From Lachnospiraceae bacterium (GTDB taxonomy: Bacteria > Bacillota > Clostridia > Lachnospirales > Lachnospiraceae), in assembly GCA_017503735.1 (NCBI GenBank), contig JAFVSN010000039.1:24079-88078 (forward strand): DNA of 64,000 bases, read 5' to 3'. The position numbers and the translations under genes were made by a program. How positions within the stretch are numbered: position 1 is the stretch's first letter; the number at the start of each line of letters is the position of its first letter. Under the pieces are notes generated by a model that had not been told where the DNA came from, searched no databases, and saw nothing but the letters and a program-made list of their open reading frames with translations. Shown here piece by piece: positions 16,581-58,730 of this stretch.

Positions 16581-16702
16581 TGTTTTCCTCCGTTTTGTCT
16601 TAGCCTCTAATAAAAACATACAACCTTTCCCCAAGGGCAAGTCAAGTACATAATCAACGGTAAGTGCCCCGAAACAATTTTGCGCTTCCTATGCGGTCAG
16701 TG

Positions 16703-17096
16703 TACCATGAACAACTCTGTTTTCCTTTCCGTCATGGTAACATTTTTCAGCCTTCGTTATCTTTTACCATGAGATTTCATATTTTCCTGTTCTATCATGG
16801 TACTCTTTTTTCTTCAAAAATTATTTTTACCATGACAACCTTTATTTTTACTACATATCATGGTACGAAATCGCTCTACACTTCGCTGAAAGAGTCTTGT
16901 CCGTACATATTTTTGACAAAATCACGTATTCTGTACCATGACCATTCCTTTATTCCTTCATCCTCATGGTAATAAAAAAAAATTCTCTCTGATTTTGTAC
17001 CATGAGAATTTCAATTTTTCTCAATATCATGGTATTTTCCAATTCCCATAGAAAACGCATACCATGATATTTCCCTTTTCTCATATCTTCATGGTA
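16703..17096. repeat. Array of six phased inverted-repeat units (TACCATGA...TCATGGTA)
   Basis: Six units of 37-38 bp each start with TACCATGA and end with its reverse complement TCATGGTA: 16703-16739, 16765-16802, 16828-16865, 16934-16971, 16998-17034 and 17060-17096. The 21-22 bp interiors differ in sequence but are T/C-rich on the plus strand. Gaps are 25, 25, 68, 26 and 25 bp, so starts are 62-64 bp apart except for one. As RNA each unit could form an 8-bp stem; as DNA the pitch is near six helical turns. No gene lies within. The region 16581-17265 otherwise holds only an element fragment and a terminator. Confidence 0.85.
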
Positions 17097-17265: not shown

Positions 17266-17607
17266 CTAGAAATTCCGTCCGTTCCATCCCCAGTCATTTA
17301 CACCGTGGTAAGTCACATATACTGCATTTGCCGGAATTCCCAGTTCTGTTTCATAGAGCTTACAGATGCGCTCGGTCATGCTTTCATAGGCACTCTTTGC
17401 ACCTGCGCCGAATAAGCTAACCGAAACATACGCTCCTCTGTCCAGCTTCTTTCCGCCCATATACAGGTCATAATTATCCTCAAAACCAACCATCAAAAAG
17501 CTTTCCGGCTTTCCCAGTAAAGCCACGGCCTTTCCAAGTTCTGCCTTTAACACATCCCGTTTCTCCTGGGGTACCGCTACCGTAATCTTAGAATCAATAA
17601 ATGGCAT
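17266..17607 (-). CDS. MIF/tautomerase superfamily protein
   Basis: 113-aa protein of the macrophage migration inhibitory factor family. Pro2 becomes the catalytic N-terminal proline after Met removal (MPFIDSKITV), and the C-terminus VNDWGWNGRNF matches the MIF end motif. Family members are trimeric keto-enol tautomerases, e.g. of phenylpyruvate, acting in the cytoplasm. GGAGG precedes the ATG. It stands alone between trpB and the inverted-repeat array. A link to aromatic metabolism is suggested only by the neighbouring trpB. Confidence 0.85.
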   Translation of the reverse strand: MPFIDSKITVAVPQEKRDVLKAELGKAVALLGKPESFLMVGFEDNYDLYMGGKKLDRGAYVSVSLFGAGAKSAYESMTERICKLYETELGIPANAVYVTYHGVNDWGWNGRNF

Positions 17608-19291: not shown

Positions 19292-19578
19292 AAAAAACGT
19301 CCTTGACAGAATTGTAGTTCTGTCAAGGACGAATAACCTAACTATCCGCGGTGCCACCTTGCTTCACGAAAAAAATCGTGCTCCTTAAAGGATACTGACA
19401 TATCCCGGACAACTAACGTATGTCCTTACGTCGCAGAATACTCTGTGCACCGCACATTTGACTGCGCCCTCCGCGGTCCATTTGATAACCTGTGTTTCAC
19501 CCGACTCTCAGCAACGCGGGCTCTCTGTGGAAGCATAATTACCGTTATCTCCGCCTCAACGGTTTGGTCATATAACAT
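19292..19578 (-). promoter_or_regulatory. Tryptophan-type T-box leader with terminator
   Basis: A tRNA-sensing riboswitch controlling trpB. In transcript order: an AGAGAG...GCTGAGAG stem I, a specifier loop in which UGG (19480-19478) sits in AAAUGGACC, the T-box sequence AAGGTGGCACCGCGG around 19346-19360 that binds the tRNA acceptor end, and a terminator formed by CGTCCTTGACAGAA and TTCTGTCAAGGACG (19298-19331) plus TTTTTT. The UGG specifier predicts uncharged tRNA-Trp as the inducer. Confidence 0.93.
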
Positions 19579-19647: not shown

Positions 19648-20466
19648 TTACTCCCCACAAAATAATTTTCGTATAAGACCATCTAAGCTTTTCGTATTCA
19701 GCGCTTTCCTTCCTGTTTCATACGTGACAAATAAGTTAACTCCTAGATATATCTCGTTTTTCTCATATGTGTTTAACTTAAACAACGCCGTATCCACATA
19801 ATTCATATCATCCATCATTCCGAAATGCTCCAGGTAGACCTCTTCTCTCATCGGCATCTTAAGAATCGTAAAATCAGGGTACATCTTAACACCACTCTCT
19901 AACACAAGAGGATATTCGTACCGGTACGGTATTCCCATTGCATATAACTTATCCGCAATAATTTTTTCTGATTTTGATCTAACCCGTTCTCCCTTCTCTG
20001 TCATTATAATATTCTCATCATCCTCAAAGGTTTTCCCTTTGTATTCCACCGCTTGCCACTGTTTTATAAACTCCTCATCCGATAAAACAGGCGAATTTAT
20101 CAGTGCTTTCCGATGGGGATTCGTTTTTTGGTACAACTTCTTTAAGCTGGTTCTATCATACGACTCCAAGAATCGTTCAATAGCTTTGATACGTTCTTCC
20201 GCCGTTTTAATCACAGACATATCATAGTCACGTTGGGCTAGTCTGCTTGCCAAGTCAATCTCGTTCTTCCTAAGATATCTTCCATTATCTCTATTCTCAT
20301 TATCACTTCCGTTCTCCGTGTTTCTATAATAGTATTCTACAACACCGTTCCAATTTCTAACACGTAGATTTCCCTTCGGCGCTTTATCCAGCCTTTTTTT
20401 GGCCTTCACTACATAACCTTTCAGTTGAAGTAACTCCTTTTTTAACATTGATTCCATTGTTTTCAT
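19648..20466 (-). CDS. PD-(D/E)XK nuclease-like protein next to the repeat array
   Basis: 272-aa protein with an N-terminal coiled-coil/helical part (~1-130) and a C-terminal segment reading RVRSKSEKIIADKLYAMGIP, YEYPLVLESG, MYPDFTILK and EVYLEHFGMMD. The order E - D - E-x-H is that of DUF559-like PD-(D/E)XK folds with ExH in place of ExK, so catalysis is uncertain. GGAGG precedes the ATG. Its start lies only 18 bp from the first unit of the nine-unit inverted-repeat array, which suggests a functional or regulatory link but proves none. Confidence 0.6.
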   Translation of the reverse strand: MKTMESMLKKELLQLKGYVVKAKKRLDKAPKGNLRVRNWNGVVEYYYRNTENGSDNENRDNGRYLRKNEIDLASRLAQRDYDMSVIKTAEERIKAIERFLESYDRTSLKKLYQKTNPHRKALINSPVLSDEEFIKQWQAVEYKGKTFEDDENIIMTEKGERVRSKSEKIIADKLYAMGIPYRYEYPLVLESGVKMYPDFTILKMPMREEVYLEHFGMMDDMNYVDTALFKLNTYEKNEIYLGVNLFVTYETGRKALNTKSLDGLIRKLFCGE

Positions 20467-20483: not shown

Positions 20484-20942
20484 TACCAATTAATCTCTTA
20501 GTATCTCCTTTTTGTTGGGCGCTTCTGAATAACAGTTACCAACTTATTTCCTTTTTTTGTTTTTCGTTGGTTTTTCTACATCCCTCCTTACCAACTTCTT
20601 TTATCATTTCTCTTTTTCATTGGTCATCCCACATCCCACCTTACCAATTTCTTTTGTCATTTCTCTTTTTCATTGGTCATCCCACATCCCTCCTTACCAA
20701 CTTCTTTTATCATTTCTCTTTTTCATTGGTCATCCCACATCCCTCCTTACCAACTTTTCTTTCTATTTTTTCTTCTCATTGGTTTTTTCTTCCTTCTGAT
20801 TACCAACTTATCTTCTGTTTTCCATTTTTATTGGGTTTAATCCTATTTTCCATACCAATAATACTCTTTTTCTTTCCATTCCATTGGTCATCATCCCAAT
20901 CCATCTCCCAATCATATTCCTTATTACTTCCTTTTGTTGGTA
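20484..20942. repeat. Array of nine phased inverted-repeat units (TACCAA...TTGGT)
   Basis: Units of ~36 bp open with TACCAA and close with TTGGT or TTGGG. They start at 20484, 20537, 20589, 20642, 20695, 20748, 20801, 20853 and ~20907 (the last imperfect), a pitch of 52-54 bp. Units starting at 20589, 20642 and 20695 and their 17-bp spacers are nearly identical; the others keep only ends and spacing. Interiors are T/C-rich on plus. On minus, several units present AAGGAGG followed by ATG and a 7-codon frame (MTNEKEK), possibly by chance. The array fills the interval between comEC and the nuclease-like gene. Confidence 0.88.
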
Positions 20943-40455: not shown

Positions 40456-40497
40456 TTCATCATCTCCTTTCCTGTTTTTTCCTTCTCACATTTATAA

Positions 40498-40539
40498 TAA
40501 ACCCGTTTACAATAAACGTGTTTATTATAAATGCGTTTA
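40498..40539. promoter_or_regulatory. Three tandem TetR-type operators
   Basis: Palindromes TAAACCCGTTTA (40498-40509), TAAACGTGTTTA (40513-40524) and TAAATGCGTTTA (40528-40539) are spaced at exactly 15 bp. Together they form a ~50-bp imperfect palindrome (40494-40543) upstream of the tetR gene. Confidence 0.75.
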
Positions 40540-40600
40540 TTATATCATGCTCCGTTCTTTTTTTCAACCCCTTTCGAATCTAATTTCCAATAAAGCAAAA

Positions 40601-57239: not shown

Positions 57240-58730
57240 CTATTTCAACTGATATGTTCTATTTCGATTTTCTCCAATAGTCACAACATCTTCCATCTCA
57301 TTCAGTAATACTCTTGTTCTTGACTGGCTCAAACCAATATATTCAGCTATGTCGCTTGCTTTTGATTCTCCATTCTGCTCAAGATAATTTCTGATTTTTC
57401 CAATGTTATCTGCTGTTTTCTTCGCTTGTTTTTTATCGTTTGTTTTTATCGCTTGTTTTTTATCGCTTGTTTTTATCGCTTGTTTTTTCTTGAACGAAAG
57501 TACCAGTACCGTTCTATCCGGATCAAACCTTTCCTCAATCACCGGCTCTTCCCAACCCTCGTCTGCCCAAACATTAAAGATGTTTGGTACACCGCTTCCG
57601 GCACGTTCCCCGATATTGATAAGATTAAACATTTTCATAAGGGCTTTGTTTCGCGGATCGGATTCACCGCCAAGACGCATCTGCTTTTTACCGGTTCTGA
57701 CATAACCCGGATTTGCTAAAACAAGCTTATCCGGTTCCTTACGGATAACAACACCGCGTAAGCCGTGATAGTCCGCGTTAATCAAACAATTCGCCAAAGC
57801 CTCACGAAGTGCCTTATGTACCGGAGTATCGTCAATACGCTCACCACCAACCATTTTAAACGGCACCTTAATATCCTTGATAATCTTATTATAAACCCTA
57901 AAATAGAAGTCACATACATTTCCGGACCATTCACCGGAGCTGGACTGTAATCTGTCACTCCAACGAGTTGTCGGATCCAATTCTTCTCTATAGTCTAAGA
58001 AATACTCCGGAAAATGACGAACAATATTGTACTCGTCGCCAAACATCAACATGCCTGCCGCCGTAGGATGCAGCTTCCCATCCTCCCCAGAAATACCGGC
58101 CGCTCCGATACTTCTCAGATATTCATGATCACTCAAACGTTCAAAAGGATGACCCTCTTTCAAGGAACGATGGCTGTTACGATATCCGTGAACGGTATCA
58201 TAATTTAAATCCTCCATCGGCACTTTATCCAGCACTTCCATGTCCATGGTGCGCTCCGTCTGGTCGCGAAGCATAGTCTTAACCTGCAATCTGGTACAAT
58301 GATAATCTCCCTCAAAATTGCGCCGAAAGGTCCCGTTGAAAATATCATTGTTGATGTACACCGGCTTCTGCTCCCGCTTTGCCATAGGCACATAAATAAC
58401 CATGATAACATCTTTATTATCCCCAACCTCATACGTCTGCACATCCTCTTCCGAAAGAAGGTTGAAACTCACCTTCTTGGAACTATTAATCCCATCCCAA
58501 AATTCCTTCCGAAGTCTTGATGCATTCCGAAGTCCGGTAGTTTGCCAACTGCCGTCTTTTTCTTCCTTAACCCCAAGGATAATGACACCTCCGTAACAGT
58601 TCGCAAACGCAGAATACGTGTCCCATAAAGAAACCGGCAAACCACCGGTGGCCTTTTTCACTTCCCTCCTATTGTCTTCTCTGTATTCATCAAACTGTGA
58701 AAGGTCAAATATATTCGGCACTCTTATCAC
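57240..58730 (-). CDS. AlbA_2 (Schlafen-type) putative DNA-binding/ATP-binding protein
   Basis: 496-aa protein: N-terminal AlbA_2 domain (ESYSAFANCYGG-type core visible as LWDTYSAFANCYGGVIILGV), middle region (ALREALANCLINADYHGLRG, LANPGYVRTGKKQMRLGGES) as in RecG-related transcriptional regulators, a low-complexity Lys-rich linker with three 9-residue repeats (KKQAIKTSD-like, ~423-450), and a C-terminal winged HTH (ASDIAEYIGLSQSRTRVLLN). It overlaps the upstream small gene by 4 bp (ATGA). Probably a regulator or nucleic-acid enzyme; function unproven. Confidence 0.85.
   Translation of the reverse strand: MIRVPNIFDLSQFDEYREDNRREVKKATGGLPVSLWDTYSAFANCYGGVIILGVKEEKDGSWQTTGLRNASRLRKEFWDGINSSKKVSFNLLSEEDVQTYEVGDNKDVIMVIYVPMAKREQKPVYINNDIFNGTFRRNFEGDYHCTRLQVKTMLRDQTERTMDMEVLDKVPMEDLNYDTVHGYRNSHRSLKEGHPFERLSDHEYLRSIGAAGISGEDGKLHPTAAGMLMFGDEYNIVRHFPEYFLDYREELDPTTRWSDRLQSSSGEWSGNVCDFYFRVYNKIIKDIKVPFKMVGGERIDDTPVHKALREALANCLINADYHGLRGVVIRKEPDKLVLANPGYVRTGKKQMRLGGESDPRNKALMKMFNLINIGERAGSGVPNIFNVWADEGWEEPVIEERFDPDRTVLVLSFKKKQAIKTSDKKQAIKTNDKKQAKKTADNIGKIRNYLEQNGESKASDIAEYIGLSQSRTRVLLNEMEDVVTIGENRNRTYQLK

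Follow-up and report, generated by a model that had tools for sequence, protein, structure and literature searches.

What is a row of nine short inverted repeats doing in front of a nuclease-like gene in a gut bacterium, and is it read as DNA or as RNA? The question is raised by positions 20484..20942 of the window, the 64,000-nucleotide stretch of a Lachnospiraceae bacterium contig (JAFVSN010000039.1) analyzed here. An earlier note had described nine inverted-repeat units at a pitch of about 53 bp, 34 bp past the stop codon of comEC and 18 bp ahead of a nuclease-like gene of 272 aa (19648..20466, minus strand), for which we use the working name nuc. The ORF positions agree with this placement, and the nine units and their pitch are confirmed by the sequence, by the spacing of the arms and by a shuffle control, the best 5-mer inverted-repeat count being 6 in the array and at most 2 in 1000 dinucleotide shuffles. 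Read on the nuc strand, these are unit 1 (20907..20941, ACCAAC .. ATTGGG), unit 2 (20854..20888, ACCAAT .. ATTGGT), unit 3 (20802..20835, CCCAAT .. GTTGGT), unit 4 (20749..20783, ACCAAT .. GTTGGT), unit 5 (20696..20730, ACCAAT .. GTTGGT), unit 6 (20643..20677, ACCAAT .. ATTGGT), unit 7 (20590..20624, ACCAAT .. GTTGGT), unit 8 (20538..20571, ACCAAC .. GTTGGT) and unit 9 (20485..20519, CCCAAC .. ATTGGT), each left arm ([AC]CCAA) starting at the higher of the two coordinates and facing a TTGG[TG] partner.

The half-site is thus CCAAY. Successive left arms lie 53, 53, 52, 53, 53, 53, 53 and 52 bp apart, a pitch of 52-53 bp (five helical turns) where 52-54 bp had been stated, and the partner arms follow 28-29 bp downstream (start to start of the 6-mers), with four to six of the six bases complementary. 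Units span 34-35 bp, not 36 bp as first thought. The TACCAA and TTGGT ends that the note considered to be kept are not constant, an arm being altered in three of the nine units (left CCCAA in units 3 and 9, right TTGGG in unit 1). Nor have all interiors diverged completely, as it held: TRF reports 3.7 copies of period 53 with 92% matches in the middle of the array, where three to four units are near-identical. A scan of the whole window found no promoter or terminator near the array, and at the stringency of the search pattern the window's own genome has no further ACCAA array. The window also contains short tandem repeats of 13 bp (57406-57488) and 15 bp (40491-40544).

The nuc protein, the presumed binder of the array, combines an N-terminal domain with a nuclease domain of the PD-(D/E)XK type at its C-terminus. 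Neither Pfam nor NCBIfam has a family scoring above cut-off, and a family model for it is absent from the four libraries searched; its C-terminal half matches the nuclease domain of PDC-S68 (PADLOC, E 3.5e-28). The AlphaFold model (pLDDT 94.8, pTM 0.78) runs from a helix (2-28) through a beta-hairpin and a second helix (67-105) to an alpha/beta domain, and its weak Foldseek matches include the R2 endonuclease and PD-(D/E)XK enzymes such as DrdV and Bax1 (best E 0.0067), the nuclease domain having a distant fold likeness to viral and phage nucleases, one of them listed as a homing endonuclease. All 73 aligned proteins share E167, D198, E213 and H214, and the conserved acidic core (E167, D198, E213) in the modeled alpha/beta fold places nuc in the PD-(D/E)XK superfamily as a putative nuclease. 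Searched alone, the N-terminal domain matched no known DNA-binding fold (best match a coiled-coil prefoldin, weak, E 0.26), and a sequence search of solved structures gave nothing relevant. The protein is conserved: four pairs whose dS does not exceed 1.0 have dN/dS of 0.01, 0.09, 0.11 and 0.13, and a fifth (dS 2.0) has 0.10. At least 571 relatives are found among the contigs scanned; the best 80, which were kept, are mostly titled Lachnospiraceae or its genera, with some Treponema and Fibrobacter. Cultured relatives bearing both nuc and an array include Butyrivibrio hungatei XBD2006 and an Oribacterium isolate (loci L142, L160). Among 398 genomes drawn from the phylum, some part of nuc is matched in 22, and the full-length protein in five, all from the window's family and one with six copies. 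At three loci (L185, L186, L191) the N-terminal domain stands alone as an ORF of 104-113 aa; the adjoining ORF resembles, by eye, a nucleotidyltransferase, perhaps forming a toxin-antitoxin pair.

Arrays of this kind go with nuc. After removal of duplicate loci (L043, L087, L099, L114, L146), 66 of 105 non-redundant nuc loci bear an array under a strict criterion (at least three units, and a count exceeding by more than one the highest of four shuffles), most of them with other half-site letters. The 67 arrays at these loci comprise 62 upstream and five downstream of nuc, one locus having both. The 39 loci that fail include short contigs, diverged arrays and loci that show no array; diverged units can be seen by eye at L092, L122 and L166, and none at L149. 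A lag scan found repeats in 69 of 103 regions upstream of nuc, compared with 6 of 192 control regions from the window's own genome (one of the six a nuc array) and 29 of 429 flanking regions (five of them downstream arrays, at L089, L106, L137, L140 and L143). Perfect inverted repeats most often have an outer span of 34-40 bp, each such length occurring at 19-32 of 100 loci against 5-15 of 102 in gene bodies and 8-15 in shuffles.

The note had proposed asking whether the array is tied to the nuc gene family or to comEC, and the answer is the gene family, with orphan arrays elsewhere. A link to comEC was rejected: comEC is found in just 7 of 97 upstream neighbors, and nuc also stands beside rpsI and others. 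The largest clusters among the 97 upstream and 107 downstream neighbors, named by eye and with duplicate loci included, are comEC (7, two of which are one locus), holA (6) and rpsI (4), and these neighbors include no constant second gene. Also rejected was an obligate cis array, with one orthologue of the window nuc (in G007) standing without any; that genome has three CCAAC arrays at 53 bp away from its comEC-locus nuc. At two loci (L068 in G005, L071 in G006), RelE/XRE toxin-antitoxin-like pieces, recognized by eye, lie between comEC and the T-box, where nuc would be expected. The T-box leader of the window (19322-19568, minus strand; 87.9 bits, Rfam gathering score 93) precedes a trpB-like gene, and the same stretch is present in several relatives.

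Two simple identities for the array can be set aside here, as the note had done. It is not a CRISPR, which would have constant repeats, unique spacers and cas genes: in the window array interiors and linkers repeat along with the arms, and no second neighbor gene recurs. Nor is it a simple VNTR. Ordinary slippage would account for the three to four near-identical units in mid-array, but like geometry recurs with different letters at 66 loci, and in position-matched orphan arrays (described below) half-sites are far better conserved than the remainder, which leaves slippage as the whole explanation with a negligible probability.

The spacings themselves come in whole turns of DNA. Each of the 289 spacings no longer than 100 bp is 42, 51-54, 61-65, 72-75, 83-85 or 95 bp, with class means of 42.0, 52.9, 63.1, 74.1, 83.9 and 95.0, or four to nine turns. 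Counting each class once per array (79 values), the spacings fit best to a period of 10.54 bp (R = 0.905), the B-DNA turn, and the estimate of about five helical turns made in the note from one locus is thereby borne out across 66. Without two near-duplicate loci the period is 10.53 (R = 0.908, 75 values); L121 and L161 were left out of part of this recheck and of the half-site complementarity test described below. Among tandem repeats in control regions, R is 0.16 over all 28 lengths; the 13 of at least 40 bp give 0.31, where 0.25 is the mean for random values. Because arrays of related genes are not independent, the cleanest evidence for phasing comes from nine arrays of mixed class (two of them near-duplicates), in which spacings change by steps of 9.5-12.5 or 21 bp. 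A looser lag scan put the best period at 10.83 (R 0.88), with R 0.84 at 10.5. The 27 nuc-side spacings above 100 bp phase less well (R 0.58). Among orphan spacings above 100 bp, R is 0.88 for 11 from TACCAT arrays and 0.72 for three from TACGG arrays, and pooling all 14 lowers R to 0.58, the period that then fits best being 9.60.

The note had taken the conservation of ends and phase to mean either binding or folding of each unit. Folding would fit an array of RNA hairpins acting as an antitoxin upstream of a nuclease, as in type III toxin-antitoxin systems (ToxIN). The position upstream of a nuclease-like gene is the expected one, the gene-sense purine fraction exceeds 0.5 in 56 of 67 arrays, and RNA folding of the window array gives z = -3.8, although any inverted-repeat array tends to such a value, which is therefore not discriminating. 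Selection on hairpins should match a change in one arm by a change in its own partner, and none is seen: complementarity to the own partner is 2232, and 2226 +/- 5 for shuffled partners (63 arrays, 416 in-register units), a value reached in 310 of 2000 permutations (z = 1.1). The arms thus behave as half-sites, not as hairpins. An earlier test without register selection had found within-unit complementarity above shuffles (z = 6); this excess is attributed to mixed registers, and the in-register test supersedes it. The helical quantization of spacing, the downstream and orphan arrays and the PD-(D/E)XK-like nuclease domain likewise speak against RNA, and the type III explanation, which was dropped after the spacing analysis, the downstream arrays and the covariation test, is now very improbable. 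Of the two possibilities raised in the note, binding is favored; folding is disfavored because half-sites do not co-vary within units and because arrays occur downstream of nuc and remote from it. Half-sites that vary independently are better explained by a protein bound along one face of the DNA than by hairpins.

If a protein reads these half-sites, the letters that it reads differ between copies of nuc. In the window's own genome, CCAAY stands beside the window nuc and TACCAT beside a second copy (contig C56), while a genome with six nuc copies (G202) has six different half-sites, each in at least three units counted without shuffle control. Arrays on both sides of one nuc carry the same half-site at L106, L169, L171 and L190, a comparison made partly without shuffle control and with just two units on one side of L190. 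Across 63 loci, the link between half-site similarity and protein similarity is weak yet exceeds chance (Mantel rho 0.13 with the N-terminal part and 0.18 with the C-terminal part, reached in 7 and 0 of 2000 permutations; L121, L161, L143 and the downstream L106 array were left out). At the comEC locus of one relative (G003), where the nuc orthologue is 70% identical, most half-sites read CCGAC and not CCAAY, a minor shift. For the cis arrays of two orthologous pairs, identity is 0.96 and 0.91 at half-sites versus 0.64 and 0.65 elsewhere; in a comEC-locus pair whose half-site has itself shifted (L017/L019), it is 0.59 versus 0.64. By these sequence comparisons, the half-site follows the nuc copy and not the genome.

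Arrays are also found at a distance from the nuc whose half-site they bear. A second array in the window (16702-17096; six units, half-site TACCAT, spacings 62, 63, 106, 64 and 62) lies between a MIF-like gene (17266-17607, minus strand; PF01187, E 1.6e-8) and a NUDIX-like gene, and the whole-window scan shows no adjoining nuc. It shares its half-site with the array beside the genome's other nuc on contig C56, and the window nuc, 2.5 kb away, has a different one. From trpB to the NUDIX gene, just 136 bp are left in G003 and 94 bp in G001. The own genome (G000) has about ten TACCAT arrays: apart from the one in the window, TACCAT clusters occur at eight locations, one of which adjoins the second nuc, and at another on contig C9. 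Unit numbers track the gene: five genomes of the genus with a nuc beside a TACCAT array have 47 (own), 65, 26, 9 and 8 TACCAT units, the other five 10, 1, 1, 1 and 0, and a control with the arms 8-14 bp further apart, used because the mirror image of TACCAT is itself and a mirrored control is unsuitable, finds 0-5 in all ten. The genome with 10 units (G001) has no nuc match, yet five of its units lie in two clusters; in G003 the TACCAT nuc is interrupted by an internal stop, yet that genome has an intact orphan array. Counts of TACGG units in genomes of other genera are 355, 95 and 74, against 26, 27 and 19 for a mirrored control, and the remaining five of eight genomes show little excess (47/14, 37/25, 27/22, 26/30, 24/9). 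The pattern CCAAY..RTTGG has a high background, with 19-126 matches in seven genomes and 26-52 for its mirrored control (63 versus 52 in G000).

These orphan arrays have a regular build. The 21 TACCAT examples contain 3-7 units, 20 of them 5-7, and in about half the first three units are separated from the last two or three by a whole-turn gap (74, 95, 104-107 or 116 bp), an architecture seen among L235-L251, L269 and the second array of the window. None of the nine that were checked contains an ORF of at least 110 aa. At one locus (L239, G007:C17), a TACCAT array with a 63-bp pitch adjoins a CCAAC array with a 53-bp pitch. Several occupy matching positions in different species, namely the rplA-rplJ gap in four species and sites at pheT and PFOR in two each, and there are two further pairs, L247/L235 (matched at one flank only) and L252/L254 (identical throughout). 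In six position-matched pairs, 359 of 364 half-site positions agree (0.99), a figure somewhat favored by the arrays having been found by motif, compared with 1065 of 1505 positions in the remainder (0.71). Because arrays with unrelated interiors sit at matching positions across species, orphan arrays appear to be old. Excluded from these pairs were L251 and L241 (G000 and G007), which are 69% alike over 354 bp (half-sites 69/69, remainder 189/292) with equal spacing pattern and no other flank match, and which could have arisen by copying to a new place or by rearrangement, or could reflect the end of a contig.

Such dispersal invites the thought that the arrays are selfish repeats with a helper enzyme, as REP/BIME sequences are with RAYT: the nuclease would create, spread or amplify non-autonomous arrays, and selection would act on the repeat population. 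The dispersed intergenic arrays do bear the half-site of a resident nuc, unit number correlates with the presence of a matching nuc, one genome has 355 TACGG units, L251 and L241 look as a moved copy might, and excerpts of the RAYT work (PMC2817692, PMC3116915) follow the same logic. However, most of the orphan arrays compared share their position between at least two species while their interiors are unrelated (an empty-site comparison covered one site), nuc has no match to an HUH/Y1 transposase, and recognition seems to be of phased double-stranded DNA. We consider this explanation rather unlikely.

A different role for dispersed sites is chromosome organization, as with MatP at matS, and by analogy nuc or a partner might bridge distant arrays. 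The ten or so arrays of the own genome, the lack of sizable ORFs in the nine checked, the 5-7 units of almost all orphan TACCAT arrays and their conserved half-sites would all suit such a function; the invariant catalytic residues would not, nor would the finding that, at the stringency of the pattern, the window nuc has just its cis array in its own genome. Chromosome organization is the least favored of the three roles weighed here and in our view improbable.

The explanation that we prefer, and which as a whole we hold to be probable on balance, is that the arrays are double-stranded DNA binding sites for the nuc next door, each copy having its own half-site, and that they park or regulate it. 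Its components differ in strength. That the arrays are bound as DNA by some protein is highly probable, and that this protein is nuc is likely. Parking or regulation of the nuclease as their main role is a tentative choice with less than even chances, favored over a REPIN-like repeat population and, after that, over chromosome organization. Each unit of about 35 bp would be a dimer site of two inverted half-sites about three helical turns apart, nuc presumably binding as a dimer. Linkers between units are whole turns, so that half-sites face one side and dimers can assemble in order; nuc dimers would then line up on one DNA face. Each nuc copy would read its own half-site in the array next to its gene; several copies would also have such arrays at other genomic locations. 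Dispersed arrays keep their half-sites, so binding cannot as a rule lead to cleavage and loss of the sites. The arrays might instead keep the nuclease parked and regulated on the host chromosome, through autoregulation or sequestration, and perhaps act as a mark of self. A fuller version, in which scattered phased arrays keep a site-reading nuclease harmless and perhaps direct it, the DNA serving as antidote or self mark under private half-site codes, is more doubtful still.

A nuclease-like gene of gut bacteria accompanied by rows of inverted sites at whole-turn spacing points to a protein-on-DNA system. From sequence alone, selection can be seen counting whole turns of DNA (classes 4 to 9, 10.54 bp) at many gut-bacterial loci, and an unnamed nuclease-like family, mainly of Lachnospiraceae, becomes tied to private DNA codes. 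Direct tests are thereby opened of whether each protein reads its half-site, of the effect of a half-turn, and of why a nuclease should have dozens of sites.

How does this compare with known systems? Iterons, matS and ParB sites are protein sites that are helix-phased or dispersed over the chromosome, but the cognate gene here belongs to a nuclease-like family. Among nucleases, the EDxHD or Vsr-like homing endonucleases form a natural comparison class, and the R2 endonuclease is distantly similar in fold to the nuclease domain of nuc. Unlike homing endonucleases, nuc is hardly found in phages (3 of 50,697 records and 8 partial matches in IMG/VR), and it is rare in plasmids as well (6 of 72,556), one match in these phage and plasmid collections spanning most of the protein. 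The C-terminal domains of the PADLOC models PDC-S68, PDC-S69 and HEAT_CxxC_PDDEXK share the nuclease domain with nuc but have other N-terminal parts, at model lengths of about 1200 aa for S68 and 290 aa otherwise, and no strong repeat array was seen at the loci of the larger proteins examined. ToxIN resembles the window locus in having a tandem repeat array upstream of a nuclease gene. Of the 67 nuc-side arrays, 62 lie upstream and five downstream, and other arrays are remote. ToxIN differs from this, and also in that no RNA-level constraint is seen here, and in fold, the family-library searches having found no ToxN, CptN or TenpN family in nuc and its fold matching PD-(D/E)XK enzymes. Beyond the PD-(D/E)XK superfamily, nuc and its arrays are placed in no known family. 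Among the papers listed in searches of an open-access library, none describes the system by its title or the opening of its abstract; it appears to be new, though papers outside that library may describe it.

Closest in logic are REP, BIME and REPIN sequences with RAYT (TnpA-REP). In excerpts of two studies, each repeat type has a distinct RAYT gene, with several pairs per genome, and repeats lie both beside that gene and dispersed between genes, in numbers that correlate with it (PMC2817692, PMC3116915). The nuc arrays share the tie to a gene copy, the cis and dispersed locations and the several pairs per genome, and dispersed units track the cognate gene as well (8-65 with a TACCAT nuc; 10, 1, 1, 1 and 0 without). 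The enzymes differ, RAYT being an HUH/Y1 protein of the IS200/IS605 kind and nuc a PD-(D/E)XK-type protein by PADLOC and fold comparison, with no HUH/Y1 tyrosine transposase listed for it and no Pfam family above cut-off. Unlike REP, the units here are interrupted inverted repeats of about 35 bp with independent half-sites and spacings quantized in helical turns; absent within-unit covariation and helical phasing argue against the single-stranded hairpin recognition of REP/RAYT. The flanking rule differs too, an array being detected on one side only at 65 of 66 loci, and where two sides are seen the orientation is inverted at L169 and direct at L106. The nuc arrays would add to REP/RAYT another, unrelated example of a gene accompanied by its own repeat population across the genome.
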